Shown in pieces: positions 47,857 through 63,429 of a DNA stretch of 64,000 nucleotides. The translations under genes were made by a program, and so were the position numbers. Positions within the stretch are counted from its first letter, which is position 1. The number at the start of each line of letters is the position of its first letter. Under the pieces are notes generated by a model that did no database searches, had not been told where the DNA came from, and worked only from the letters and a program-made list of their open reading frames with translations. Origin of the DNA: Acidobacteriota bacterium (lineage in GTDB: Bacteria > Acidobacteriota > Terriglobia > Acidiferrales > UBA7541); NCBI GenBank assembly GCA_021788095.1, contig JAJYLB010000004.1, positions 1 through 64,000 of the forward strand. Reading direction: 5' to 3'.

Positions 47857-49014
47857 ATGGATGCAACCAGGGGGCCAGGTGGGTCTTGCAATCATCGCTA
47901 TATCGTCAAGTCTGTCATGCATGCTTCCGCGGTGCTCGCCACGTTCCATTCGCCTGGAGAGACTCTCGAACTTCGTGAAGTGGTCGCGCGTTCCGGGCTG
48001 AACAAGTGCATGGTCTTCCGGCTCCTCTACACCTTGCACGAATGCGGGCTGGTGGAAAAGGTGGGCGCGAATCAGTACCGCCTGGCCTTTCCTCCCGCTC
48101 GCCAGCGCAAGTTTCGGATCGGTTACGCGGATCAAGACCAGAGTTCCTCGTTTTCCCGGGAGGTTTTCGACGGGCTGGTCCGGGCATGCCAACGGGCGCA
48201 AATCGAGTTGATCATGGTCGACAACCGGCGCGACCCCAAGGCGGCGTTGAAGAATGCGGAGCAACTGATCCGCGAGCACGTCGATTTGGCGGTCGAGTTC
48301 CAGATTGACGAGCGCACGGCGCCGGCCGTGGCTTCCCGGTTTCAAAACGCCGGGATTCCCCTCATCGCCATCGATATCCCCCACCCGGGCGCCGTCTATT
48401 TCGGGGCGGATAACCACTCGGCGGGCTCGATGGGCGGCCGGTGCCTGGGACATTACGCCAAGGAGCAGTGGCAAGGCGCAGCGGACGAAATCCTGCTGCT
48501 CGAAATCTCCCGAGCCGGCCCGCTCATCCGGATGCGGACGGACGGGGTGCTGACCGGAGTGAAGGAAGCGATGCCGGCCGCGCACAAATGCCGGGTCGTA
48601 CGGCTCGATGCCAAGGGGGAGTTCAAGGCCGCCCTCGATTGCGTTCGGAAACACCTGGGAGAGAGCAACGCCAAGCACATCCTCGTCGGCGCCGCCAACG
48701 ATCCTATCGCCTTGGGCGCGCTACGCGCCTTTCAAGAGAGCGGGCGCAGCGCCCATTGCGTGGTGGTGGGTCAGAACGCCGAGCCGGAGGCTCGCGCCGA
48801 AATGCGGCAGCCGGGTACGCGGCTGATTGGTTCCGTGGCGTACTTCCCCGAGCGTTACGGCGATGTGATCGTCCGGCTGGCAACGGACGTTTTGCTGGGG
48901 AAGAACGTGCCGCCGGCAGCCTTCACCACGCATCAACTCATCACTCCTCACAATGTGGATCGCTTGTACCCCAACGACTCCCTATTCGTCCGCGTAGCCC
49001 GCGAGTACACCTGA
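47857..49014 (+). CDS. IclR-type HTH fused to a periplasmic-binding-protein domain, probable rhamnose-locus regulator
   Basis: A 385-residue protein. Residues about 15-85 form an IclR-type winged HTH (KSVMHASAVLATFHSPGETL, ELREVVARSGLNKCMVFRLL). From about 100 on, the protein is a LacI/ribose-binding-like sugar-binding domain (Peripla_BP_4): IELIMVDNRRDPKAALKNAE, IPLIAIDIPHPGAVYFGADN, HILVGAANDPIALGALRAFQ. Classical IclR regulators have a GAF-like effector domain and LacI regulators have a LacI HTH, so this pairing is unusual. No signal peptide is present, which makes it a cytosolic transcription factor. AAGGAG lies 5 bases before ATG 47857. Sensing of a rhamnose-derived sugar is inferred from context. 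Confidence 0.82.
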   Translation: MDATRGPGGSCNHRYIVKSVMHASAVLATFHSPGETLELREVVARSGLNKCMVFRLLYTLHECGLVEKVGANQYRLAFPPARQRKFRIGYADQDQSSSFSREVFDGLVRACQRAQIELIMVDNRRDPKAALKNAEQLIREHVDLAVEFQIDERTAPAVASRFQNAGIPLIAIDIPHPGAVYFGADNHSAGSMGGRCLGHYAKEQWQGAADEILLLEISRAGPLIRMRTDGVLTGVKEAMPAAHKCRVVRLDAKGEFKAALDCVRKHLGESNAKHILVGAANDPIALGALRAFQESGRSAHCVVVGQNAEPEARAEMRQPGTRLIGSVAYFPERYGDVIVRLATDVLLGKNVPPAAFTTHQLITPHNVDRLYPNDSLFVRVAREYT

Positions 49015-49479
49015 GACCGCGTTTTGCTCTTCAACACGCGACGGCCGGCTCCTGCCGCTCAGCGCGCCTTGGCGGAAGGGTTCGGCCGGCCGGAAGTCCT
49101 TGGCGCTCAATCGTCAACTTTTGATGAGGGGCAGCGCGCAGCCGTTTTGCGCCACGAAACAGCGCGGATTCCCCTCGATTCGCTTGACCTCCGAGCGATT
49201 TGGTGTCAAGTCTCAAACCCACAATTCAAACGTTCGGGTCAAACGCGGCGCGACTGCCCGTTGCGATTTCCCACTTTTCGCGCCTGGTCAGGGTCAGAGA
49301 GCAGAGGGCTGAAGGGCAGCTAGTCATCGCCGTCGGGCGGCGAGAGGCTGCAGCGGAGGGCAATCAAGGGGCGGCAGGGCGAGGCATTGCTTATCGGGCT
49401 TTCCACGAACAAGAGGCCAACGAGGGAGAGGCAGGGGCGCAAGCGGATACGTGTTGCCTGCCTCGGGGAGGGACGATTC
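49015..49479. promoter_or_regulatory. Probable control region upstream of the rhamnose-locus receptor
   Basis: No gene is supported in these 465 bases. An inverted repeat CTTGAC (49183-49188) / GTCAAG (49205-49210), centred about 13 bases apart, sits in an A/T-richer stretch and could be an operator or overlap a -35 box. A clear -10 element was not found. It is the likeliest place for the regulator encoded just upstream to act. Confidence 0.35.
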
Positions 49480-52400
49480 ATGCGACAGGGGAAAGCGGCA
49501 TTCTTCGGGGCGGTGTTGGCGTTGGCGAGCGCGGTATTCTTCCCCGGCTCGCTGGTGGCTCAGATAGGCGGGGCGGGCGCCATCCAAGGGACGGTGACCG
49601 ACCCTTCGGGCGGGGTCGTTCCCAATGCGACGGTTGTGGGAACGAACCAAGCGACCAATGTGACGACGACGATCCAGACGACGGACAAGGGCTTTTACGT
49701 CCTGTCGCCCCTGCAGGCGGGCAAATACACGGTTACGGTGAAGCGTAACGGCTTCAAGACCTACACGCAGCAGGATGTGACGGTCAACGCCCTGACGACC
49801 GCGGGGCTCAACATCAAACTGGAAGTCGGAACCGTGACGCAGCAGGTGACGGTCACTTCCGCTCCGCCGCAGTTGAACACGTCGAACGGAACGCTCGGCG
49901 CCACAATCGAGAACAGCGCCTATTCGGCGCTTCCGCTCGCCGTAAGCAATGGGCCGCGCAACCCGCAGGGTTTCGTCACGCTCCTGCCGGGCGTCACCGG
50001 CGCCGGCGGAACGCTTCATGTGAATGGCGGCCAAGGCTATACAGGAACGATCTACATCAACGGCTCGCCCGACGTCTACCAGGAACTTGGGAACGACAAT
50101 CGCGGCTTGACTCTCGGCTTGTCCGTGGATTCGATCAACCAGTTCCAGCTCGACACCAGCGGCACGCCCGCCATGTACGAAGGCCAAGGCGTGCAGAACT
50201 ACGTGACCAAGTCGGGCACGAACCGGTTCCACGGCTCCGCGTGGGAATACCTGCGGAACACGGATTTCGACGCTCGGTGCTTCTTCTGCTCCACGCGGGC
50301 GGTCGAGCATCAGAACGAATTTGGCGGCGATCTGGGCGGCCCGATCGTGCACAACAAGATCTTCTTCTTCGCCGATTACGACGGTTTTCGCGAGCACACA
50401 GGCACGAATCCGCGGTACATCAGCATCCCCACCGCAGCCGAGCGAACAGGCGATTTCAGCGCGCTACTTGGTCCGCAACTCAGCACGTGCACGGTAGGCG
50501 GCGTCAAGAATAAGCCCTGTTATGACGCTTTGGGCCGGCCGATCTATCAGGGCGAGATTTTCGATCCTTCCACCACGCGGACGGTGGGCGGAGCGGAGAT
50601 CCGCAACGGATTTGGATTCGATTCCATCACGGGCCAGCCCATCCCCGGCCAGGCCAACGTCATCCCGAGCGGCGACATATCCGCAATCTCCCAATCCCTC
50701 GCGTCCTATCTGCCCGCCACGGTCAACAACGACGTGGCCAACAACTTTTTGGAGTCGTTCCCCAACCCGCGGACCGACAACGAGCTTACGGCGAGGGGGG
50801 ATTTCATTCTCTCCCAAAGAAACCGCATGTGGGCGGTGATGGACTGGGGCCGGCTGATCTATACCGGCACGCCGGCGAACAACATGCCGCTTCCTTATGC
50901 GGAAGAGCGCCAGGTGACCGAGGAGCCCTGGCTGGGCCAATTGGGCGACACCTTTATCATTTCTCCCACCCTCGTCAATCAGTTGAATTTGAGCTACAAC
51001 CGCATCGCCATTCCCATCACCAACCTGACTGTTGGCGGCCATTACGCGACGAAATCGGGGATTAAGGGTCTGCCTCCGGGCCAGGCCTCCAATGCCTTCC
51101 CTCGGGTGACCTTCGGCGGACCCAATTCCCCGACGAACTGGGGCGGAAACGGGGCCGAGGCGTTCGACGAGTACGACAACGAGTGGGACATCTCAGAGAC
51201 GGCGGAGCTGGTCTACGGCGCCCACAACCTCAGCTTTGGCGCGGACCTCGCCAAGCAGAGCGACATCTTCTTCTCGCCCGATCAAGGGAGTTTCCCCGCG
51301 GTCTTTAGTTTCGGCAACAACCAGACGGCGGGGTTCGACTCGAAGGGGAACCTTCTCACCGCCGTTGGCAACTCCTACGCCAGCTATTTGCTGGGCGACC
51401 TCTCGGGCGGCTCGATCGGTTACAACGCGGCCGCCGAGGTGGATTCGATCAGCTTCCGCTACGGCCCGTTCATCGAGGACGATTGGCGAGTTACGCCGCA
51501 CCTGACCATGAACTTGGGTCTTCGCTGGGACGTTTTCACTCCTTTCGTCGAGCGGTACAACCGCTTCACTTTCATGAGCGCGACCGCGATCAACCCCGTT
51601 GTGGGGATTCCCGGCGTCCTCCAATACGCCGGCTCCGGGAGTTTTGGCTGCGGCTGCAGAACGCCCGTCCAAACGCATTACCACGAATTCGCCCCGCGCT
51701 TCGGCTTTGCTTACCAGTTCATGAAAGATACCGTCCTTCGCGCCTCCTGGGGCATGTTCTACGATCGTGCGGGAGCGCTGGGCGGCGGGATCGATACGCA
51801 GGCGGCAAATCTGGGCGCGCTGGGCTATTCAAATGGCCCGATCATTTCAACTCCGAACAGCTACACGCCAGCCCTCAGCGCCTGGAATGGCGGGACCATT
51901 CCCTCGTTCCAGCAGCCGCCGATCTTCGATAACACGCTGAATACGGGCTACACCACCGCCACGGGGCCGAAAGCTGGCGGGATGACCTATCCCGATCCCC
52001 AGCTTGGCGGCCATCCGGTCGAAACCGAGTCCTACAATTTCGGGATCGAGCGCGCCTTGACTCCTTCCATGGTCCTGGGCGTCTATTATTCCGGCAGCCA
52101 GGGCCATTTCATTCCTACGACCGGGCGCGGCTACTACTTGGATCAAATCCTGCCGAAATATCTTGTCCTGGGAAGCTTGCTCAACGCCACCGCGACCACG
52201 GCAAACATCGCCAAAGCGAACGCCATCCTTGCCAGCAGCGGGATTCCCAACGTGGGATTGCCCTACGCCACTTTCGACGGCAGCATCGGCCAAATGTTGC
52301 GTCCGTTCCCGCAATATAGCGGTGTCGGCGATCCTTATGGTGACGTGGGGAACGAGACGTACAACTCCTTGCAAGTCATGCTGCAACACACGATGTCGCG

Positions 52401-53112
52401 TGGACTGCAGTTCCTCGTGTCCTATACCTTCAGCAAGGATCTGGGGAACGGCGGATCCATCAAGGGTGGAAAAGGCGCGGGGCTTGGCAGCGCCCGCACC
52501 GGCTACAACCTCGACCAGGAGAAATCCATTTGCAATTGCGACGTTCCCCAGGCTTTGGTGGTCAGTGAAGTTTGGCAGCTACCGATTGGTACGGGGCATT
52601 CCCTCTTCAACGGCAATCGGGTGGAGCGCGCCATAGCCAGCGGCTGGGAGGTCTCCGGAATCGAGAGCTACTACAAGGGCGGGCCGTTGGGGGCGTTCGG
52701 CGCCGCCTGCAACCTTCCTTACGCCGGGACCTGCTACGCCGACTACAATCCTTCGTTCAGCGGTGCCGTGCGGATCAATGGCAGTTACGGCAGCGGAACC
52801 GATCCGGCCGCCACGCCGTACCTCGACGTCGGGGCATTCCAGAGCCCCGCTCCCTATACCTTCGGCAACACGCCGCGGAGCGCGGCGTTCGACCTGTGGG
52901 GTCCCGGAAGCCTCAACGAGGACCTCGCGCTGAGGAGGAACTTCAAAATCCACGAGAATTGGACATTGCTGCTCAGTGGCGAGGCGTATAACTCCTTCAA
53001 CCGGGTCAATTTCGGCGGGCCCAATACGAGCATTACTTCGAAGGGCTTCGGCACGGTCGGGTCGGCGGGCGGCGGGAGGATCCTCCAAGTCGTGGCAAGG
53101 CTGAACTTCTGA
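49480..53112 (+). CDS. Oar-like TonB-dependent receptor of the rhamnose locus
   Basis: A 1210-residue outer-membrane protein. The signal peptide is MRQGKAAFFGAVLALASAVF to VAQ. A CarboxypepD_reg domain (VTDPSGGVVPNATVVGTNQA, GKYTVTVKRNGFKTYTQQDV) and a plug (LLPGVTGAGGTLHVNGGQGY, YVTKSGTNRFHGSAWEYLRN) follow, then a long beta-barrel ending RILQVVARLNF with terminal Phe. Residues such as GYTGTIYINGSPDVYQELGN, DFDARCFFCSTRAVEHQNEF and GGPIVHNKIFFFADYDGFRE are typical of the Oar/acidobacterial TBDT group. GGGAGGG lies 8 bases before ATG 49480. It probably imports or binds rhamno-oligosaccharides; substrate assignment is by location only. Confidence 0.85.
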   Translation: MRQGKAAFFGAVLALASAVFFPGSLVAQIGGAGAIQGTVTDPSGGVVPNATVVGTNQATNVTTTIQTTDKGFYVLSPLQAGKYTVTVKRNGFKTYTQQDVTVNALTTAGLNIKLEVGTVTQQVTVTSAPPQLNTSNGTLGATIENSAYSALPLAVSNGPRNPQGFVTLLPGVTGAGGTLHVNGGQGYTGTIYINGSPDVYQELGNDNRGLTLGLSVDSINQFQLDTSGTPAMYEGQGVQNYVTKSGTNRFHGSAWEYLRNTDFDARCFFCSTRAVEHQNEFGGDLGGPIVHNKIFFFADYDGFREHTGTNPRYISIPTAAERTGDFSALLGPQLSTCTVGGVKNKPCYDALGRPIYQGEIFDPSTTRTVGGAEIRNGFGFDSITGQPIPGQANVIPSGDISAISQSLASYLPATVNNDVANNFLESFPNPRTDNELTARGDFILSQRNRMWAVMDWGRLIYTGTPANNMPLPYAEERQVTEEPWLGQLGDTFIISPTLVNQLNLSYNRIAIPITNLTVGGHYATKSGIKGLPPGQASNAFPRVTFGGPNSPTNWGGNGAEAFDEYDNEWDISETAELVYGAHNLSFGADLAKQSDIFFSPDQGSFPAVFSFGNNQTAGFDSKGNLLTAVGNSYASYLLGDLSGGSIGYNAAAEVDSISFRYGPFIEDDWRVTPHLTMNLGLRWDVFTPFVERYNRFTFMSATAINPVVGIPGVLQYAGSGSFGCGCRTPVQTHYHEFAPRFGFAYQFMKDTVLRASWGMFYDRAGALGGGIDTQAANLGALGYSNGPIISTPNSYTPALSAWNGGTIPSFQQPPIFDNTLNTGYTTATGPKAGGMTYPDPQLGGHPVETESYNFGIERALTPSMVLGVYYSGSQGHFIPTTGRGYYLDQILPKYLVLGSLLNATATTANIAKANAILASSGIPNVGLPYATFDGSIGQMLRPFPQYSGVGDPYGDVGNETYNSLQVMLQHTMSRGLQFLVSYTFSKDLGNGGSIKGGKGAGLGSARTGYNLDQEKSICNCDVPQALVVSEVWQLPIGTGHSLFNGNRVERAIASGWEVSGIESYYKGGPLGAFGAACNLPYAGTCYADYNPSFSGAVRINGSYGSGTDPAATPYLDVGAFQSPAPYTFGNTPRSAAFDLWGPGSLNEDLALRRNFKIHENWTLLLSGEAYNSFNRVNFGGPNTSITSKGFGTVGSAGGGRILQVVARLNF

Positions 53113-53235
53113 TCGCGCTCGGGGCGGGTGTTGCGCCAGGGCGCGAGACATGCTGCATTTCCGCGCAAGCTCGGGGCACGGCTCCGGCCGCGAAGACCTT
53201 GGGGATGACCTGCGCGCTCGACGAAGGATGCGTGG

Positions 53236-54780
53236 ATGGATAATTCCCTCAAATCGCCTTCTTCCGGATTGACTCCCTCGCGGCGGGATTTCCTCAAGGG
53301 CTCCGCCGCGGCGGCCGTGATGCCGGCCTTGGGCGCTGTTGCCGGCGAGGGCAGGGCTCCGGAAGGAGGGGAGCCTCCCGCGCCGAAAGCGAAGCCGAAT
53401 ATCGTTCTTTACATCGCCGACCAGTTCCGCTGGGACATGGTGAGCGCCTACGGCCTGAACCCCATGCGGATCACGCCGAATCTCGACGGCGTGGCGGCGC
53501 GCGGGGTCGCTTTTGCTAATTTCGTCACCAATCAGCCTTTGTGCTCGCCTTCACGCGCCTGTCTGTACACCGGCCTGTACGCCACCCAGACGGGCGTATG
53601 GACGCTGTCGGATGAGGGCGTCGCCGGCGCCTATTTGAAGCCGGATGCCGTCACCTTGGCCACGATTCTCCGCTCGGAGGGTTACACGGCCAACCTCATC
53701 GGCAAGTGGCACCTGGCTCCAGGCAGCCACGCCGAACCCAAGACCCTGGGCTTCGTTCCCCGCGAGTACCGAGGCGGCTTTCTGGACTTATGGCAAGGCT
53801 CGAACGTGGTCGAGCTGACTTCGCACCCCTATTCCGGCACGCTCTGGAACGGGGACGGCGAGCCGATGGAATTCAAAGACATCTATCGCGTGGATTACCT
53901 GACCGAGCTGGCGGTGAAGTTCCTCGAGCGGAAACACGAAAAGCCGTTCCTTCTGGTCGTGTCCCAGTTGGAACCGCATTTCCAGAACGACATGAACGCT
54001 TTCGTGCCGCCCAAGCAATACCGCGATAGCTTTATCAATGGTTTCGTCCCGCCGGACCTCCGTTTCTTCCCCGGCGACTGGGACCGGCAACTGCCCAATT
54101 ACTACGGCGCTATCAAGAGCATCGACGATTCCGTGGGAACGGTTCTCAAGACGCTCGACGAGCAGGGCCTTGCCGGCAACACGATCTTCCTGTTCTTGAG
54201 CGACCACGGTTGCCATTTCCGCACTCGCAATACCGAATACAAACGCAGCCCCCACGAAAGCTCGATTCACGTTCCGCTGCTCTTTCAAGGACCGGGTTTC
54301 AACGAAGCTCGCCTGGTGCGCGAGCTGGTCAGCATGATTGACGTGACGCCCACCCTGCTCGACGCGGCCGGAGTGAAGGCTCCCTCCTCGATGATGGGCC
54401 GAAGCCTCTTGCCTTTGATCCACGATCCGGCGGCGCGCCAAGCGTGGCGGCAGGAAGCCTTCCTCCAGATCAGCCAGTCGATGGTGGCGCGCGCCCTCCG
54501 GACCGACCGGTGGACCTACTGCGTGGCCGATCCGAGCTTGCCGAATGGAAACTTCCCCAGCAGCAAGCATTATGTGGAATACCAAATGTACAATCTCGCC
54601 GCGGACCCGCATCAGTTGGTCAACTTGGCGGGCCGGCGAGACGTGCCCTCTGCGGTCCACTACTTTGGCGAGCGAGTGGATGCCGAGATCGCGGACCACC
54701 TGCGCCAGCGGCTCCTCGCGCGGATGGCCGATGCCGGCGATCCGCCGGCCACAATCGCGCCGCGGAAGTTGTACCCATGA
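53236..54780 (+). CDS. Tat-exported sulfatase
   Basis: A 514-residue sulfatase of the alkaline-phosphatase superfamily. Tat signal SRRDFLKGSAAAAVMPALGA (residues 15-34). The core begins NIVLYIADQFRWDM. The formylglycine motif CSPSR is at 103-107 in PLCSPSRACLYTGLY, so a formylglycine-generating enzyme must exist elsewhere (the CxPSR type matures via FGE). GKWHLAPG and LSDHGCHF supply further active-site and metal residues. It should remove sulfate esters from a glycan outside the cytoplasm. It lies between the receptor and two exported glycan enzymes, which suggests a sulfated rhamnose polymer. Confidence 0.88.
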   Translation: MDNSLKSPSSGLTPSRRDFLKGSAAAAVMPALGAVAGEGRAPEGGEPPAPKAKPNIVLYIADQFRWDMVSAYGLNPMRITPNLDGVAARGVAFANFVTNQPLCSPSRACLYTGLYATQTGVWTLSDEGVAGAYLKPDAVTLATILRSEGYTANLIGKWHLAPGSHAEPKTLGFVPREYRGGFLDLWQGSNVVELTSHPYSGTLWNGDGEPMEFKDIYRVDYLTELAVKFLERKHEKPFLLVVSQLEPHFQNDMNAFVPPKQYRDSFINGFVPPDLRFFPGDWDRQLPNYYGAIKSIDDSVGTVLKTLDEQGLAGNTIFLFLSDHGCHFRTRNTEYKRSPHESSIHVPLLFQGPGFNEARLVRELVSMIDVTPTLLDAAGVKAPSSMMGRSLLPLIHDPAARQAWRQEAFLQISQSMVARALRTDRWTYCVADPSLPNGNFPSSKHYVEYQMYNLAADPHQLVNLAGRRDVPSAVHYFGERVDAEIADHLRQRLLARMADAGDPPATIAPRKLYP

Positions 54781-54846
54781 GATGATCGAGAAGACGCCCC
54801 GTGTGGGAAAGCATTGTTCCGCGAATGGAGCGGGAAGGGGAGGGCC

Positions 54847-57096
54847 ATGAGTAAGAAAGAGGAGGATCTGGGTCCGGACAGGCGGCAGGCCTTACAGAAA
54901 CTTCTGGGAATCGGCGCCGGCTTGGCCGTGCCGGCGGAGTGGTGGACTCCGGCACTCGGGGCTTCCCCTCAAACCGCGCCAGCCCGGCCCGGGAACTCAC
55001 CATTCCGGCGAATCCTCCTACCCAAGGGCTCGCATCCCGCGGTGATCTCGGCGGCGAAGATTATCGCGAGCAAGTTGGGTCTTCCCGAGTCCGCTGTCCG
55101 GATGGACGGCAGCAACCCGATGCCCCGCAAGGGAGAACTCGTTTTGGCCGCCACCCCGGTTTCGGAAAAGCAGCGCAGGTTCTTGGGCGCGCAGGCCGCG
55201 CCGCCGAAGTTCGATGGATACGTCATCGGCTTCCGCGACCAAGGCGCGCTCGTTGCGGGCAATCGCCCGCGGTCGCTGCTCTATGCCGCGGGCGATCTCG
55301 ATCTGTGGCGGAATCAACAGGAGGGCGCTTTCCTGCGCGAGCCGAGCTTCGAGCTGCGCGTATCCCACGGAAGCCGTGGGAGAACCATCGCGGAATCCGT
55401 GGCGGAGCTGGGCGCCAATGTGATGCAAGGCGTTCCGGCCGTGGCGACGCTGAAACAGAGTTTTCCGGACGTCTTTAATCGGCTGAGCCATGACGACCAG
55501 GATCGCCTGCTGCGGGCGCAAAGCGCGATGGCGGAACGGAGCAAGGCGATCCTCGAGCAGTGCCGCGACGCCGACGTGCCCGTCTACACCTCCATCTACG
55601 GCAATAATTTCGAGCATTGGTCCCCGGCGCTCTACCAAGCGGTCATCGAAACCTATCCCTCCACCAAAGGGACGCCGGAAGCCCATTCGTGGGAAAAGTG
55701 CCCGCTATGCCCTTCCGACCCGATGACCTGGAAGATTATCGACGCCTACATCCGGGAACTCATGGAGCGCAGCGGCGCCGACGGTTTCGTGGGGATTTTT
55801 TGGGACCAATACGGCATGTTTTGCCACGACGAGCGTTGCGTCCGCGACGGCCTGAACAAATTCCCGAACGAGGTGTACGTCAACGTGCAGCAGCTCTACG
55901 ATACGGTGGTGCGGTCGATGGGCAAGGGGCTCATCGTGCGCACCTGGTCCTCGGGCTGCCCGCACTGGCTGGGCGACGAGTACGTTCACGCGCCCGGCTA
56001 CGGAGGCTTCGGCGGGACGGGCGAGGAACTTTGGGGACGCGTCATTCACGGGCTTCCCGCCGAAATCATGCTGCAAACCAAAGTGTACAACTCGGACGTC
56101 GAGCCCAACCCGCCGTTCAGCCCGCTGATCGGCGCGGTCAAGCCCCATCCACAGATCGCGGAATACCAAATCATCGGGCAAACGACCGGGCGCTATTATT
56201 TCCCGGCCTCCTCGGTGAACTACACCGCGTGGACGATGAAGAAAGCCCGGGAGCTGATCGGGCCGACGGGCGGGGTCGCCTTGGGCTACGGCGCGACGAT
56301 GCAGCCCGACTTCTCGCTTCCCGACGACATCGTGAATGGGATCAACCTGTACGCCGCGCGCGAGCTTTCCTGGAACCTCGGCGCCGACATGGAAACGGTC
56401 TGGAGCCGTTGGGCGACGCCGATTTACGGACCCGAGGCTGCACCGCACATCATCAAGGCGCTCCAGCTATCGGAGGATGCCGCGAACCTGACGTTCTCGG
56501 TGTTGGGACTCGGCAGCAGCACGAACTCGAATTTCGTCGGCAGCGTCGCGCGCAAGGAGACGCTGCTGCGGTATACCAACCGCTTCGACCTGCCCGAATA
56601 CGCGAAATACCTCGAGCCCACGAAGGAGAACATCGCGCTGGTGATCGCCGAAAAGCAGAAGTGCAGGGAGGGTATCCAGCAGATGTTTCAAGAGCTGGAA
56701 TTGGCCAAGCCGCACTTGACCCCGGCGCAGGCGGAAGAGCTGGAAACCCGGTTCAACTGGTTCCGGGAATTCGCCATCTGCCGCCAGTATCACGACATCA
56801 GCCTGTGGCGTTACCGCTACCTCCGCTATCTCGCCACGCAGCTCACCACCGAACCCGAGCAGATGAAATACCTCGCCGAAGCCTACGACCAAGTCGCGGC
56901 GCACCACAAGCTGCTCTTCCAGTACGATCCCAAGCTGAAGTTCAGTTGCTACGACAGGCCGCTGGGCGAGTTGCTTCGCAAGCCCGACCTGGGCGACCCC
57001 ATGCCCGTGATGAAAGAGCTGTATGACGAATCCAGGAAACTGGTCGAACAATCGGTCGGGCCGGACTATTTGCCGGCCGAATGGATCCGGGATTGA
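54847..57096 (+). CDS. Tat-exported TIM-barrel enzyme resembling alpha-glucuronidases (unassigned glycoside hydrolase)
   Basis: A 749-residue protein. The signal DRRQALQKLLGIGAGLAVPA is Tat-like. Residues about 50-170 look like the alpha/beta domain that precedes the barrel in GH67/GH20-type enzymes (ILLPKGSHPAVISAAKIIAS, GELVLAATP, GYVIGFRDQGALVAGNRPRS, LLYAAGDLDLW). A barrel follows (SHGSRGRTIAESVAELGANV, VYTSIYGNNFEHW, DGFVGIFWDQYG, GLIVRTWSSGCPHW). The last third is helical. Two cysteine clusters (CPLCP, CHDERC) may bind metal or form disulfides. It fits an alpha-glucuronidase or related exo-glycosidase acting on glucuronic-acid-bearing rhamnans, but catalytic residues cannot be fixed. 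Best called unassigned. Confidence 0.65.
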   Translation: MSKKEEDLGPDRRQALQKLLGIGAGLAVPAEWWTPALGASPQTAPARPGNSPFRRILLPKGSHPAVISAAKIIASKLGLPESAVRMDGSNPMPRKGELVLAATPVSEKQRRFLGAQAAPPKFDGYVIGFRDQGALVAGNRPRSLLYAAGDLDLWRNQQEGAFLREPSFELRVSHGSRGRTIAESVAELGANVMQGVPAVATLKQSFPDVFNRLSHDDQDRLLRAQSAMAERSKAILEQCRDADVPVYTSIYGNNFEHWSPALYQAVIETYPSTKGTPEAHSWEKCPLCPSDPMTWKIIDAYIRELMERSGADGFVGIFWDQYGMFCHDERCVRDGLNKFPNEVYVNVQQLYDTVVRSMGKGLIVRTWSSGCPHWLGDEYVHAPGYGGFGGTGEELWGRVIHGLPAEIMLQTKVYNSDVEPNPPFSPLIGAVKPHPQIAEYQIIGQTTGRYYFPASSVNYTAWTMKKARELIGPTGGVALGYGATMQPDFSLPDDIVNGINLYAARELSWNLGADMETVWSRWATPIYGPEAAPHIIKALQLSEDAANLTFSVLGLGSSTNSNFVGSVARKETLLRYTNRFDLPEYAKYLEPTKENIALVIAEKQKCREGIQQMFQELELAKPHLTPAQAEELETRFNWFREFAICRQYHDISLWRYRYLRYLATQLTTEPEQMKYLAEAYDQVAAHHKLLFQYDPKLKFSCYDRPLGELLRKPDLGDPMPVMKELYDESRKLVEQSVGPDYLPAEWIRD

Positions 57097-57133
57097 CGCC
57101 GGAGCAGGTCGGGAAAGGAAGGAGCCGAGGAGG

Positions 57134-59956
57134 ATGGGTCGCCGGTTCTCCCGAAGGGAATTTTTCCGCCGCGCTTCGCTCGCGGGACTGGGGCTTTCCG
57201 CCAGCGGATGGATCGCCGGGAGCGCGCGAGGGCGGGAGAATGCGGCTGCCGGTCCCGGCTCGCTTTGGGAGTCGTTTCTCGATCCGCCAAACGACGCGCG
57301 CATCATGTTTCGCTGGTGGTGGTTCGGCCCGGCGGTGACGCATGAAGAACTCGAGCGCGAACTGCGAGCGATGAAGGCGGCCGGCGTCGGCGGGTTCGAA
57401 GTCCAACCCGTTTATGCGCTTTCGCTCGACGATCCCGCGAAGGGCACCCGCAATCTCCCCTACCTTTCGGAGGATTTTCTGGACGCCCTGCGTTTCGTCG
57501 GCGAGAAGTCCCGGGAACTGGGCTTGCGCTTCGACCTCACCGGGACGACCGGCTGGCCTTATGGAGGCGCGCGCGTGCCGGTGACCCAAGCCGCGGGGAT
57601 GTTGCGCATCGCCCGCGTTCCCGTCTCCGCCGGAGAGGATTCGGTGCCTGTGCCCGCTCTCGAATCCGGCGAATCGCCGATCGCCGCCTGGGCCGTCCGC
57701 GACGAATCGAATCTCGCCTCCGGCGCGCTCGAACTCACCGGTCTTGACGGTTCCCGGGTGAGCGTCACAGGAGCGCGAGGCGCTCAGCTCGTCCTGTTTT
57801 TCATTTCCAGCCGCACCGGCCAGCTCGTCAAGCGCGCCGCGGTGGGCAACGAAGGCTTCGTGGTGGACCACTACGATCGCGCGGCGGTGGAAGCGTATCT
57901 CGACTCGACGGTCGCGCCCATGCTGCGAGCGCTCGGCCCCAACGCGCCTTACGCGCTTTTTAGCGATAGCCTCGAGGTTTTTGGCTCGAATTGGACGCCG
58001 AACCTTCTCGAAGAATTCCAGCGCCGGCGCGGTTACGACCTCAAGCCATACCTCCTTTCACTCGCGAGCGGCGCGGGCCCCGAAGGCGCGGCCGTGCGGT
58101 GCGATTGGGGGCACACGCTGACGGAACTCGCCAATGAAGGCTACCTGACCACCCTCCGCCAATGGGCCGATCGCCATGGCACGCGCCTCCGCGCGCAGGT
58201 GTACGGCACGCCACCTGTCACGCTCTCGAGTAACCGGCTGGTGGACCTGCCCGAAGGCGAAGCCATAAACTGGCGAGGCCTCAGCCCCGTCCGCTGGGCC
58301 GCTTCCGCCTGCCACTTGTATGGCAAGCCGGTCACTTCCTCGGAAACGTGGACGTGGGTCCATTCGCCGGTGTTCCGTGCGACTCCGCTCGATCTGAAGG
58401 CCTTGGCCGATCTCTACTTTCTGGAGGGTTCGAATCAAATCGTGGGCCACGGGTGGCCGTACTCGCCTCCCGCGGCTGGCGAACCCGGCTGGGCTTTTTA
58501 CGCCGCAGGCGCTTTGAATGACCACAACCCCTGGTGGATAGTGATGGCGGACCTCGCGCTTTACCTTCAACGCATCTCGTCGCTTCTGCGCCAGGGCAAG
58601 CCCGTGCACGACGTCGCGGTTTACCTCCCGACGAGCGACGCCTGGGCGCGATTTGCGCCGGGGCGCAGTCCTTCCGTGAACGAGTCGTTGGCGTCGGCTT
58701 TGGGCACGGAGTTGACCGGCAACATCCTCGATGCCGGCTTCAATTTCGACTTCATTGACGACGAGGCGATTGACCTGGTGGGCATACCCTACCCGGCGAT
58801 GGTCCTCCCGAACGTCGAGCGCATCCCCTTGGCCGCTTACGAAAAGATCCAGGAGTATGTGCGCCGCGGCGGACACGCGATCGCCATCGGCCGCACCCCC
58901 TCCCTTGCTCCCGGCCTCTTCGAGGGCCGGCGCGATAACGCCCGGATTCAGGCGCTGACCCGCGAGCTTTTCGAAAACCCAGCGGCTGCCGGCGTTTTGC
59001 TGAGGGATGGCTTGGCGGTGGGAGACGCGCTGCGCAAGCGGCTCGTTCCCGACGTCGAGCTTTCTCCCCAGACGTCCGCCGTGGGATTCGTTCACCGCAG
59101 AACGGCGTCGGAAGAGATCTATTACCTGGTGAACACGGCCAACGAAGCTCAGGCGGTCGAAATCGCGTTTCGCGTGAACGGTCTTTCGCCGGCGCTCTGG
59201 AACGCCTACACGGGCAAGAGGCGAGTTCTGGAGTCGGCGAAAGCCGGCGGGGGGCGCGTCACTCTGCCTTTCCACTTCGCGCCCTACGAATCCGCCATCG
59301 TCGTCTTCTCCGCTTTCCAGGCCGCTGCGGAGACGAGACGTGCCAGGACCGAGCCGGCGCCGGCTCGGCTCGACCTGAGCGGGGATTGGGACGTCACGTT
59401 CCCGGAAATGGGCAAGACGGTCAAGATGAGCCGGCTTCGCTCTTGGACGGAATACGAAGATCTCCGGTTCTTTTCCGGCCAGGCGGCTTACGAAAGAACG
59501 GTGGATGTGCCGGCGTCCTGGGTGCGAGGTGGCAGGCCGATCGTTCTGAATTTTGGCGAAGGAACTCCCGTGAAGGCGGAAAGGAGCGGGACGCGAGGCC
59601 TGCGCGCGTGGCTCGATGGCCCGGTGCGCGAGGCCGCTGTCGTCTACGTCAACGGGCAACGCGCCGGCTCGGTCTGGCACCCCCCTTATGAGGTTGAGGT
59701 GACGGCTTGGCTGCGCCCTGGCCGGAACACGCTGCGCATCGTCGTCGCCAACACGGCCGTCAATCAAATGGCGGGGAAATCGCTTCCCGTGTATCGCCTT
59801 CTGGACAGTTTGGATCGCCCGCGGTTCGAGCCGCAGGACTTGGACGATATTGCACCATTGCCTTCGGGCTTGCTCGGCCCAGTCCTTCAGCTTTCCCGCG
59901 GGAGCAAGGGTTCCGTGCCCGGAGTCCTATCTTCGAAGAGGTCAGGAGGTCAATAA
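57134..59956 (+). CDS. GH106-type alpha-L-rhamnosidase, Tat-exported
   Basis: A 940-residue enzyme. Tat signal SRREFFRRASLAGLGLSAS (residues about 6-24). The catalytic part opens with FRWWWFGPAVTHEELERELR and AMKAAGVGGFEVQPVYALSL, the entry of GH106 proteins, and has KPVTSSETWTWVHSP in the middle, where GH106 carries a catalytic-site Glu. An N-terminal GH2-like jelly roll lies at the C-terminal end (LDLSGDWDVTFPEMGKTVKM, YVNGQRAGSVWHPPYEVEVT, NTLRIVVANTAVNQMAGKS). It cleaves terminal alpha-L-rhamnose from polysaccharides. AGGAGG lies directly before ATG 57134. Its end contains the strong ribosome-binding site of the next gene. Confidence 0.85.
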   Translation: MGRRFSRREFFRRASLAGLGLSASGWIAGSARGRENAAAGPGSLWESFLDPPNDARIMFRWWWFGPAVTHEELERELRAMKAAGVGGFEVQPVYALSLDDPAKGTRNLPYLSEDFLDALRFVGEKSRELGLRFDLTGTTGWPYGGARVPVTQAAGMLRIARVPVSAGEDSVPVPALESGESPIAAWAVRDESNLASGALELTGLDGSRVSVTGARGAQLVLFFISSRTGQLVKRAAVGNEGFVVDHYDRAAVEAYLDSTVAPMLRALGPNAPYALFSDSLEVFGSNWTPNLLEEFQRRRGYDLKPYLLSLASGAGPEGAAVRCDWGHTLTELANEGYLTTLRQWADRHGTRLRAQVYGTPPVTLSSNRLVDLPEGEAINWRGLSPVRWAASACHLYGKPVTSSETWTWVHSPVFRATPLDLKALADLYFLEGSNQIVGHGWPYSPPAAGEPGWAFYAAGALNDHNPWWIVMADLALYLQRISSLLRQGKPVHDVAVYLPTSDAWARFAPGRSPSVNESLASALGTELTGNILDAGFNFDFIDDEAIDLVGIPYPAMVLPNVERIPLAAYEKIQEYVRRGGHAIAIGRTPSLAPGLFEGRRDNARIQALTRELFENPAAAGVLLRDGLAVGDALRKRLVPDVELSPQTSAVGFVHRRTASEEIYYLVNTANEAQAVEIAFRVNGLSPALWNAYTGKRRVLESAKAGGGRVTLPFHFAPYESAIVVFSAFQAAAETRRARTEPAPARLDLSGDWDVTFPEMGKTVKMSRLRSWTEYEDLRFFSGQAAYERTVDVPASWVRGGRPIVLNFGEGTPVKAERSGTRGLRAWLDGPVREAAVVYVNGQRAGSVWHPPYEVEVTAWLRPGRNTLRIVVANTAVNQMAGKSLPVYRLLDSLDRPRFEPQDLDDIAPLPSGLLGPVLQLSRGSKGSVPGVLSSKRSGGQ

Positions 59957-59959
59957 CCA

Positions 59960-61162
59960 ATGAGCGCAAATGCAGGCAAGGCCGGAGCGGCCATGGAAAC
60001 CAACGTGAAGGAGGCGCTCGATCGCCTTCAAATCGAACTCCCCTCCTGGGGTTTTGCCGACACGGGAACGCGGTTTGGGAAATTCCTGCAGCCGGCGGCC
60101 AAGACGGTCGAGGAGAAATTCGCCGATGCCGGCCAAGTCCACCAGTTCACCGGGGCGTGCCCGACGGTGGCGTTGCACGTTCTGTGGGACTTGCCGAAGG
60201 GGACGAAGCCTTCGGCAGTCCTGGAGCTGGCGGCCCGCTTTGGCGTGCGTCCGGGTTCGATCAGTCCGAACGTCTTCGAAGACCAGATCTACAAGCATGG
60301 TTCGCTCGCGAACGAGCAAGAAACCATACGCCGGCACGCGCTCGAGCACATTTTGGATTCGGTGCGCATCGCGCGGGAGCTGGGCTCGCGCGACGTGACC
60401 CCTTGGTTTGCCGACGGCTCGAACTTCCCCGGCACGGCCAACATCCGCGCGCGAAAGCGCTGGATGGCGGAGGGACTGAAGCAGGCGCACGACACGCTGG
60501 GCGACGGGCAGCGCCTTTTGATCGAGTACAAGCCGTTCGAGCCGGCCTTTTATCACACCGACATCGCCGACTGGGGGATGGCCTTGACTCTGGCTCGCTA
60601 CGCCGGGCCCAAGAGCCGCGTCCTGGTCGACACGGGCCACCATTACCAGGCCCAGAACATCGAGCAGATCGTTGCCTGGCTGCTGGATGAGGGCATGCTC
60701 GGCGGATTCCATTTCAACGACCGCCGGTATGCCGATGACGACCTCACGCTCGGATCGATCGACCCCTACCAGGTCTTCCGGATCTTTGCCGAGATCCGGT
60801 TCTACGAGTGGGAGACGGGCCGCCGCGCCGATATCGCCTTCATGGTCGATCAGAGCCACAACTTGAAGGGGAAGATCGAGGAGATGATCCAGACGGTGAT
60901 GAACGCGCAAGAACTCTACGCGAAAGCCGCCCTCATCGATTTTCCCGCCCTCGCCAAAGCGCAGCAGGAACAGCGGCTGATCGATGCGGAGAACCTCTAC
61001 AAAGACGCCTTCAGCACCGATGTGCGGCCGGCCGTGCGGGAGTGGAGGCGGGCCAAGCAGCTTGCCGACAATCCCCTGGCGGCATTTCGCGCCAGCGGGT
61101 ACCTGGAACGCATCACCCGCGAGCGCGCGGGCCGCAGCACCGCCGCCGGGGGATACGCCTGA
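59960..61162 (+). CDS. L-rhamnose isomerase
   Basis: A 400-residue TIM-barrel enzyme of the RhaI/Pseudomonas-type family that converts L-rhamnose to L-rhamnulose. Metal and substrate residues are clear: LLIEYKPFEPAFYHTDIADW, VLVDTGHHYQAQN, GGFHFNDRRYADDDLTLGSI and the RADIAFMVDQSHN stretch. An IYKHGSLAN loop precedes the barrel core. AGGAGGT lies 9 bases before ATG 59960, inside the end of the rhamnosidase gene, so translation is coupled. ATGs at 59994 and later are less likely. It uses the product of the mutarotase and feeds the aldolase fusion and kinase steps. Confidence 0.9.
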   Translation: MSANAGKAGAAMETNVKEALDRLQIELPSWGFADTGTRFGKFLQPAAKTVEEKFADAGQVHQFTGACPTVALHVLWDLPKGTKPSAVLELAARFGVRPGSISPNVFEDQIYKHGSLANEQETIRRHALEHILDSVRIARELGSRDVTPWFADGSNFPGTANIRARKRWMAEGLKQAHDTLGDGQRLLIEYKPFEPAFYHTDIADWGMALTLARYAGPKSRVLVDTGHHYQAQNIEQIVAWLLDEGMLGGFHFNDRRYADDDLTLGSIDPYQVFRIFAEIRFYEWETGRRADIAFMVDQSHNLKGKIEEMIQTVMNAQELYAKAALIDFPALAKAQQEQRLIDAENLYKDAFSTDVRPAVREWRRAKQLADNPLAAFRASGYLERITRERAGRSTAAGGYA

Positions 61163-61203
61163 GCCAGGCAACCGGCGGGGAGGGTGTTGACGGGAGGAAG
61201 CTC

Positions 61204-63429
61204 ATGGGTTCGCCAGAAGCCTCAGCCAGACCGGCACTGCGTTACCTCAAGGATTTGTGGGACGAGAGCGTCGCCGCGGGCCTGGACGAGCCCGAAACGC
61301 TTCGCTACCGCTCGAATCTGCTTGGCGCCGATCTACGCATCACGAACTTCGGCGGCGGCAACACCAGCTCGAAGCTCAAGCAGCGAGACCCGCTCGATGG
61401 CCGGGAAGCCGGGGTGCTGTGGGTGAAAGGGAGCGGCGGCGACCTGGGCAGCGCCGAGCGGCGTGGCTTCGCCTCGCTTTACCTCGAGAAACTCCGCGGC
61501 CTCGAGCGAATCTATCGCGGCGTCGAGCATGAGGACGAGATGATGAGCTGCTACCCGCTCATCACCTTCGGGGTGAATCAGGTGGCGCCCTCGATCGACA
61601 CCCCCTTGCACGGCTTCTTGCCGTTCGATCACGTCGACCATCTGCACCCGGATTGGGCCACGGCGTTGGCCGCGGCGGCCAATGGCCACGAGCGCCTGGA
61701 GGAATACAACCGGCGATTCGGCCACCAGCTTCTCTGGCTGCCCTGGCAGCGTCCCGGATTCGAGCTGGCGATGATGCTGAAGCGCGCCGTCGAGCAGAAT
61801 CCCGCGGCCGACGGCGCGGTGCTCGGCTGCCACGGCCTCTTCACCTGGGCCAACACGCAACGCGAGTGCTATCTGAGGAGCATTACCGTTATCGACCAAT
61901 TCGGCCAGTTCGTGGGAGAGGCGATCGAAAGGAAAACAAAGGACTTGTTCGGCGGACCGCTCCACCAGGTGCGAGCCGACTTTCGGGAGGTTGCGCTACA
62001 GGTCTTCCCCTTCCTGCGCGGGCGAATCTCCCGCCACGAGCGCGTGATTGGGAGCTTCCGCGATCTCCCGGAGGTGCGGCGCTTCGTCAACTCGCGGGAC
62101 GCCCAGCGGCTGGCGCACCTGGGCACGAGCTGTCCGGACCACTTTGTCCGGACGAAGATCCGCCCTCTGTTTGTGGCCTGGGATCCCGCGCGCGACACCG
62201 CGGCCGCTCTCAGAGAGTTGCTCGACAAGGAGCTCGCCGATTACCGGCGGGAATACGAGGAGTACTACCGCAGTTTCGCCGCGCCGGATTCACCCGCCAT
62301 GCGCAATCCCCATCCCACGGTAGTGCTGATTCCCGGCATCGGGATGTTCACGTTTGGGAAGAGCAAGATGGAGGCCCGGCTGACCGGTGAATTCTACGTG
62401 AACGCCATTCACGTGATGGAAGGGGCCACGGCCCTGGAAAGCGGTCCGCCACCGAAGACGTTGCCGCAAGCGGGCAGAGCCGCGTCCACCGAGGCGTTCG
62501 AGGTCTATCACAACTACGTGGCCTTGCCCCCGAAGGAAGCGTTCCGAATCGAGTACTGGCCGCTCGAAGAAGCCAAACTCCGCCGCCAGCCGCCGGAGAA
62601 GGAGCTGAGCCGCAAGGTAGCGTTCGTGGCCGGTGCCGGGCACGGCATCGGCCGAGAGACCGCGTTGCTCGCGGCGCGGCGCGGCGCGCACGTCGTTGCC
62701 GCCGACCTCGACGAAGAAGCCGCCAAAACAGCGGCGCGAGAGGTGGCGGAAATCGGCGGGCCGGATGCGGGCGCGGCCGCCGTCTTCAATATCCGCGACC
62801 GGAATTCGGTGCGCGCGGCGCTCGCACAGGCTGTCGAAAACTTCGGCGGAATCGACATCCTGGTGAATACGGCCGCCTTGTTTCCCGCGCCCCCCGATGG
62901 CCAGGTTACGGATGAAGACTGGCGGCTCACGCTCGACATCAACGTGACGGGAAACCACCTCTTGGCTTCGGAAACCGAGACGATCTTCCGCCTGCAGGAG
63001 CTTTCGGGAGCCATCGTGCTCACCAGTTCCGCCAATGCGGTGGTGGCCAAGCGGGGTAGCGAGGCTTACGACGTCAGCAAGGCCGCGGTCAACCACCTGG
63101 TGCGCGAGCTGGCGATACGGCTGGCGCCCGGGGTGCGGGTGAATGCCATTTGTCCCGCCACCGTGGTCAAGGGCTCCACGATGTTCCCGCGGGAGCGCGT
63201 CCTCGCCTCGCTCGCCAAATACGGCCTCGATCACAGTGAGGCGGAATCGACCGAGGATCTGCGGAGCGAGCTGGCGCGCTTCTATGCCCAAAGGACGCTG
63301 ACCGGCGAGAGCATCGATCCGGCGGATTGCGCCGAGGCGATCCTTTTCCTGGCCAGCGACCGCTCCCGCCGCACGACAGGCCACCTGTTCCCCGTGGACG
63401 GAGGCCTCGTCGAAGCGTTTCTAAGATGA
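61204..63429 (+). CDS. Bifunctional rhamnulose-1-phosphate aldolase / short-chain dehydrogenase
   Basis: A 741-residue fusion. Residues 1-430 are a class II aldolase domain (NLLGADLRITNFGGGNTSSK, PFDHVDHLHPDWATALAAAA, GCHGLFTWANTQRE) with the metal-binding histidines of the RhaD-like family. Residues 467-741 are an SDR: AGAGHGIGRE binds NAD(P), VNTAA replaces the usual NNAG, and Ser, Tyr and Lys lie in TSSANAVVAKRGSEAYDVSK. The aldolase splits rhamnulose-1-phosphate into dihydroxyacetone phosphate and L-lactaldehyde; the SDR half likely oxidises the lactaldehyde. GGGAGG lies 6 bases before ATG 61204. It is a normal fused arrangement in this pathway, located between the isomerase and kinase. 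Confidence 0.92.
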   Translation: MGSPEASARPALRYLKDLWDESVAAGLDEPETLRYRSNLLGADLRITNFGGGNTSSKLKQRDPLDGREAGVLWVKGSGGDLGSAERRGFASLYLEKLRGLERIYRGVEHEDEMMSCYPLITFGVNQVAPSIDTPLHGFLPFDHVDHLHPDWATALAAAANGHERLEEYNRRFGHQLLWLPWQRPGFELAMMLKRAVEQNPAADGAVLGCHGLFTWANTQRECYLRSITVIDQFGQFVGEAIERKTKDLFGGPLHQVRADFREVALQVFPFLRGRISRHERVIGSFRDLPEVRRFVNSRDAQRLAHLGTSCPDHFVRTKIRPLFVAWDPARDTAAALRELLDKELADYRREYEEYYRSFAAPDSPAMRNPHPTVVLIPGIGMFTFGKSKMEARLTGEFYVNAIHVMEGATALESGPPPKTLPQAGRAASTEAFEVYHNYVALPPKEAFRIEYWPLEEAKLRRQPPEKELSRKVAFVAGAGHGIGRETALLAARRGAHVVAADLDEEAAKTAAREVAEIGGPDAGAAAVFNIRDRNSVRAALAQAVENFGGIDILVNTAALFPAPPDGQVTDEDWRLTLDINVTGNHLLASETETIFRLQELSGAIVLTSSANAVVAKRGSEAYDVSKAAVNHLVRELAIRLAPGVRVNAICPATVVKGSTMFPRERVLASLAKYGLDHSEAESTEDLRSELARFYAQRTLTGESIDPADCAEAILFLASDRSRRTTGHLFPVDGGLVEAFLR

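Follow-up and report, generated by a model that had tools for sequence, protein, structure and literature searches.

An exported GH67-related protein in a rhamnose gene run of an Acidobacteriota bacterium, a candidate alpha-uronidase

The gene at positions 54847–57096 of a 64,000-nucleotide stretch of DNA from an Acidobacteriota bacterium (the window; positions 1 to 64,000 of contig JAJYLB010000004.1, assembly GCA_021788095.1) is real and well conserved, and profile comparisons identified its product as a remote cousin of the GH67 alpha-glucuronidases. Judging from these comparisons and a tree, the protein and its close relatives (the window clade) form a lineage of their own, a distant sister of GH67 and of the DUF4838-like proteins. 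Based on the GH67 homology with a rebuilt active site, the export signal and the surrounding rhamnose gene run, the protein is proposed, with a probability of about 0.5, to be a secreted inverting exo-alpha-uronidase of the GH67/DUF4838 superfamily, acting on an acidic rhamnose-containing oligosaccharide ahead of the rhamnosidases.

The gene and its protein

The open reading frame on the + strand ran from an ATG at 54847, preceded by a purine-rich stretch, to a stop codon at 57094–57096 and encoded 749 amino acids; an in-frame TTG at 54814 would give a longer alternative start. Because full-length relatives exist at 52–77% identity, the frame is a conserved coding sequence rather than a chance one. 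No second copy was found in the same genome at E 1, an Rfam scan of 48500–61500 returned nothing at gathering score, and a promoter and terminator scan gave nothing above chance. The features of the gene were:

54847..57096, + strand: coding sequence of a putative GH67-related exported enzyme, 749 amino acids (open reading frame, homologs, profile match to GH67 and DUF4838-like proteins)
54847..54966, + strand: export signal region, approximately the first 40 residues, with RR at 12–13 followed by a hydrophobic stretch (Tat-type, judged by eye and against VDRRTFLK in the relative at locus L038)
55102..55350, + strand: putative GH67N-like N-terminal region, approximate, residues ~86–168 (weak GH67N match, E 0.01, in the relative at L010; lies within the hhalign match to GH67)
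55792..55842, + strand: FWDQYG motif and Cys pair, residues 316–332 (F318, W319, D320, Y322, G323, C326 and C331, invariant in 7/7 rows)

A preliminary description of this DNA had called the protein Tat-exported, and a Tat-type signal was indeed recognised by eye. Every member of the window clade was full-length and carried an export signal, with a twin-arginine start in six of the seven aligned rows; as judged by eye, export thus appears conserved across the clade, and the Tat route does not appear universal because the relative P0004 carries a Sec-type signal instead. The motif FVGIFWDQYG, also singled out earlier, was present, its F318, W319, D320, Y322 and G323 being invariant in 7/7 rows, with P0004 carrying His in place of Q321. 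The two cysteine clusters described at the same time held in part: C288, C326 and C331 were invariant in all seven rows, while C285 was Ala in the other six. For the supposed GH67/GH20-type N-domain, the GH67 profile match did begin at about residue 94 and so covered this region, while the Pfam support was weak (GH67N, E 0.01, in L010; GH20b, E 0.21, in one A1 member).

The (beta/alpha)8 barrel is inferred from homology to GH67. AlphaFold predictions based on a three-row alignment (window, L002 and L003, the last two being near copies) reached a mean pLDDT of 40.6 and a pTM of 0.35 for the mature chain, and 33.2 and 0.26, respectively, for the barrel part; neither model was used further.

Relatives and distribution

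The window clade is patchily spread in a few other Acidobacteriota, the phylum in which genome-by-genome searching was done. Full-length relatives, the window's own genome included in the first two counts, occurred in 5 of 399 genomes of the window's class, in 2 of 396 genomes of a phylum sample and in 1 of 162 genomes of another class, that of genome G182; these samples overlap. No member was found in the four other genomes listed of the window's genus. A contig scan gave two loci, L002 and L003 (best segment at 77% identity), and Acidobacteriota genomes added L010 (G077), L009 with P0004 (G182), L038 (G673) and L039 (G651). The resulting alignment had seven rows, the window protein and six others at 52–77% identity to it, P0002 and P0003 being near copies. 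Matches in G084 and G512 spanned only the first ~40 residues, the signal, and were excluded from the relatives; those in G836 and G837 aligned as true GH67 (L049, L050) and were not taken as clade members. Viral contigs scanned with A2, A5 and A4 gave 48, 43 and 112 candidate stretches, respectively, none of which was confirmed as a relative.

Plasmid records held remote cousins only. Searching them with P0004 (tblastn) gave 16 records at E 1, annotated alpha-glucuronidases included, the best E values being 2e-7 (a Pelagibacterium cousin) and 4e-7 (a Stammera GH67). The former (L008, 6–1595, on the 4050-base record of Pelagibacterium halotolerans pPHB2) is a 529-amino-acid open reading frame without a gene in the PLSDB table, akin to the window clade and to DUF4838, and the same 4 kb record carries GH43 and SDR genes. 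It showed 22% identity over 415 aligned columns. A further cousin in Klebsiella aerogenes (L037, 5839–7570, LR134122.1) is split over two overlapping frames, which may reflect a genuine disruption of the gene or an error in the sequence. Both cousins differed from the window protein in lacking its N-terminal region.

Placement beside GH67 and DUF4838

No Pfam or NCBIfam model reached its cut-off with the window protein. The Pfam search returned only DUF4838 (PF16126), with E 0.0026 and 17.4 bits, below its cut-off of 26.6; Glyco_hydro_67M (PF07488) gave 11.3 bits for a cut-off of 23.5. Glyco_hydro_67N and 67C gave no match at E 1, the catalytic models of GH20 and GH115 none at E 1 or better, and NCBIfam and PHROGs none at E 1. 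Relatives reached 16.5 bits with 67N (cut-off 24.3) and 22.3 bits with 67C (cut-off 27), P0004 matching GH67C at E 1e-4. The single window protein gave no meaningful match to PDB sequences. Weak PDB matches to a Dps protein, SopA and others were taken as chance. These models assign the protein to no Pfam or NCBIfam family, and a CAZy family without such a model may still include it.

The seven-row profile ranked GH67 AguA first among PDB sequences, weakly (hmmsearch, E 0.028). Using hhalign, the window clade matched GH67 over residues ~94–559 (97.0% probability, E 1.2e-10) and, in local mode, a second, nine-row GH67 set (95.8%, E 7.9e-9). The match to DUF4838-like proteins (L040–L042) was stronger and reached residue 643, in the C-terminal helical region (98.0%, E 2.1e-13); L008 scored 98.4% (E 4.1e-15), L023 96.3% and L043 95.0%. 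Since these profiles comprised few, similar rows, the E values are to be taken cautiously, and the controls are the safer guide: GH106 scored 0.5%, the sulfatase 1.9% and reversed GH67 0.2%. In an earlier comparison, apparently over global ranges, DUF4838-like proteins, L008 and GH67 scored 97.9–99.3% and the three controls 0.0–0.1%. L025 was dropped from the argument, as it scored 69.5% and did not keep the Asp and Glu discussed below. In a 19-row tree, GH67 and the window clade each formed one side of a 100/100 branch, with the long-branched L008 and L023 placed unsurely. The earlier statement that the protein has no clear family therefore holds for the models tested, while the clade can be placed beside GH67 and the DUF4838-like proteins.

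Compared with GH67 (Geobacillus AguA, PDB 1k9e/1mqp), the N-domain, the middle (barrel) region and the start of the C-terminal helical region aligned in order, and the signature LQ.K....D...P.SPL.G....E.QI.....G was retained in the window clade. An extra Cys pair set the clade apart from GH67. With the DUF4838-like proteins it shared a Cys cluster in the same position.

Gene neighbourhood

As the preliminary description had noted, the gene sits between a sulfatase (Pfam E 1e-55) and a GH106 rhamnosidase (Pfam E 1.5e-71), on the same strand. These belong to a same-strand run of rhamnose genes from 49387 to contig position ~69262 (L012), from the barrel transporter through a GH78; same-strand order and short gaps suggest that the run may form an operon. 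Besides the gene itself, it comprised:

49387..53112, + strand: outer-membrane beta-barrel transporter with an N-terminal carboxypeptidase-regulatory domain (52% identical to an outer-membrane protein in L010, 37% to the one in L039)
53236..54780, + strand: Tat-exported S1-type sulfatase (53% identity to the sulfatase adjoining the L038 relative)
about 57134..59956, + strand: GH106 alpha-L-rhamnosidase with a Tat-type start (72% identical to the GH106 in L003)
59960..61162, + strand: L-rhamnose isomerase-like protein (TIGR02635, 482 bits, below the 531 cut-off)
60808..63429, + strand: class II aldolase and short-chain dehydrogenase fusion, true start probably after 61162
contig 63684–65132, same strand: FGGY kinase
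contig from 65300, same strand: RhaT-type transporter
contig from 66542, same strand: GH78

From its domain order, the fusion is inferred to be of the rhamnulose-phosphate aldolase/dehydrogenase type.

The context varied among the seven loci of the close family. GH106 lay directly downstream in four (window, L002, L003, L010), and a related sulfatase adjoined the gene in two (window and L038); L003 had a different sulfatase (27–28% identity), on the opposite strand and not adjacent. A barrel-type transporter occurred in the examined stretch of six of the seven, with none seen in L038. BLAST served to recognise those of L003 and L009 as well as the adjacent copy in L010; the L002 protein was recognised solely from its length and position. 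GH88/GH105-type genes were present in two loci, together with a GDSL esterase in L038 and with a PL22-like gene and GH95 in L009; the window's genome has one GH88/105, on another contig. L010 carried a rhamnogalacturonase/epimerase-like beta helix. L039 carried a GDSL esterase, an FGGY kinase and a short-chain dehydrogenase, and no GH106 or sulfatase was among the open reading frames scanned in its 18 kb. The Klebsiella cousin adjoins rhamnogalacturonide genes (RhiN) and a polygalacturonase, neighbours that act on rhamnogalacturonan. The genes directly following the DUF4838-like L040 (2928–5477) and L042 (2–1888) matched a fungal-type glucuronoyl esterase model (36 bits, above its cut-off of 27) and also Peptidase_S9; these neighbours hint that DUF4838-like proteins may act on uronic-acid-bearing glycans. 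The common thread of the clade loci is an acidic, rhamnose-containing polysaccharide, for which RG-I-like and sulfated rhamnan-like substrates are both candidates.

Active site and alternative readings

Residues 406–448 of the window protein (43 residues) aligned without gaps to AguA 353–395 (1mqp/1k9e), which placed three positions:

56095..56097, + strand: D417, counterpart of AguA D364 (gap-free alignment; invariant in 7/7 rows)
56161..56163, + strand: E439, counterpart of AguA E386 (gap-free alignment; invariant in 7/7 rows)
56179..56181, + strand: Q445, counterpart of AguA E392, with Glu changed to Gln in all members (alignment)

In a wider set of 23 rows, the Asp was present in 22 (the exception being L025) and the Glu at position 439 in 20 (not in L043, L023 and L025); both were present in 10/10 GH67 rows and shared with the DUF4838-like proteins. 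Position 445 was Gln in six clade rows, L008 and L023, and Glu in the ten GH67 rows, L040–L043 and L025, so that L008 retained all three residues of the window protein while L040–L042 differed at the third. AguA E386 reads Gln in PDB entry 1mqr, which indicates that others had singled it out before. In AguA, D364 and E392 serve as base residues and E285 (SEGQPG) as the general acid. The kept Asp and Glu and the remote homology lend substance to the earlier label of glucuronidase-like.

The SEGQPG-type acid motif had no conserved counterpart in the window clade, and ERGYAG, invariant in 6/6 GH67 rows, no invariant one. The GH67 motif KAxSEG was replaced by FWDQYG, with D320 near that position, which makes D320 a candidate general acid. 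L040–L042 read VNESGQ at the same place, so that the end of this strand still bears a carboxylate, the exact pairing being uncertain.

These changes allow for a GH67-fold glycosidase that kept its scaffold and part of its acid set and acquired a non-uronic target (a neutral, amino or L-sugar, or sulfated rhamnose). The invariant Gln, the loss of ERGYAG and the closer position of the clade to the function-unassigned DUF4838-like proteins than to GH67 (E 2e-13 vs. 8e-9, and the tree) speak for such a change. However, D417 and E439 are common to GH67 and most cousins, and the neighbouring genes of several loci are of types that target acidic sugars (GH88/105, PL22-like, glucuronoyl-esterase-like); we consider a changed sugar rather unlikely. 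With one of the two presumed base residues and a recognisable acid motif gone, the protein might also have ceased to be a hydrolase and turned into a lyase or into a binding protein with an inactive barrel, but D320, D417, E439 and Q445 are invariant in 7/7 rows despite 52–77% identity, suggesting a working active site, and no member is truncated or devoid of a signal, which makes such a loss quite improbable. An ordinary xylan alpha-glucuronidase that merely scores low would explain the GH67 homology and is most improbable, given the PF07488 score below its cut-off while the full GH67 of the same genome reaches 477.8 bits (on another contig; L052, G000 contig C82, 35595–36563), the separate 100/100-supported group and a rhamnose rather than xylan context, no xylan genes having been recognised beside the gene in the window.

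Proposed function

As an exo-alpha-uronidase, the enzyme would bind a non-reducing-end uronic acid (GlcA or GalA) outside the cytoplasm. Water would be activated by D417, with E439 nearby, and a carboxylate terminating the fourth strand of the barrel, with D320 as the candidate, would protonate the leaving sugar. The sulfatase, GH106 and GH78 encoded nearby would then act on the exposed, possibly sulfated rhamnose, and RhaT would import L-rhamnose for use by the isomerase, kinase and aldolase-dehydrogenase encoded in this run. Inversion is expected by analogy, GH67 and GH115 being described as inverting (PMC13059095). Counting against the uronidase reading are the Gln at the E392 position throughout the clade, the missing counterparts of SEGQPG and ERGYAG, and the varied gene context. 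GH115 is a distant structural relative of GH67 with a common core fold in which the active-site residues are not conserved (PMC3879575); as this comparison warns, the glycone could have changed in the window clade as well.

Two substrates may be set against the proposed uronidase. Ulvan was rejected: its GlcA is beta-linked and therefore a poor fit for a GH67-like enzyme. The alpha-GalA-1,2-Rha linkage of RG-I would fit, but RG-I is not known to be sulfated.

A broader proposal is that the clade constitutes a new GH family beside GH67, of secreted alpha-uronidases cutting GlcA or GalA from the rhamnose of (sulfated) acidic polysaccharides, in which one GH67 base carboxylate would have become a fixed Gln and the general acid would have moved; we put this forward tentatively, at somewhat less than even odds.

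Implications

Of 194 GH families, a 2026 paper credits just three (GH4, GH67 and GH115) with alpha-glucuronidases (PMC13059095). Among open-licence papers on GH67, new families, rhamnose alpha-glucuronidase and Acidobacteria rhamnogalacturonan or sulfatase, no title or opening of an abstract described the window lineage, and DUF4838 as a word appeared in one transcriptome study. If the proposal is true, a lineage bridging GH67 and DUF4838 proteins in rhamnose loci would widen the set of alpha-glucuronidases, DUF4838 would gain a testable function, and the clade would illustrate in what way the catalytic set of GH67 can be altered. For the bacterium, the protein is probably an unstudied tool for dismantling acidic rhamnose-containing polysaccharides.
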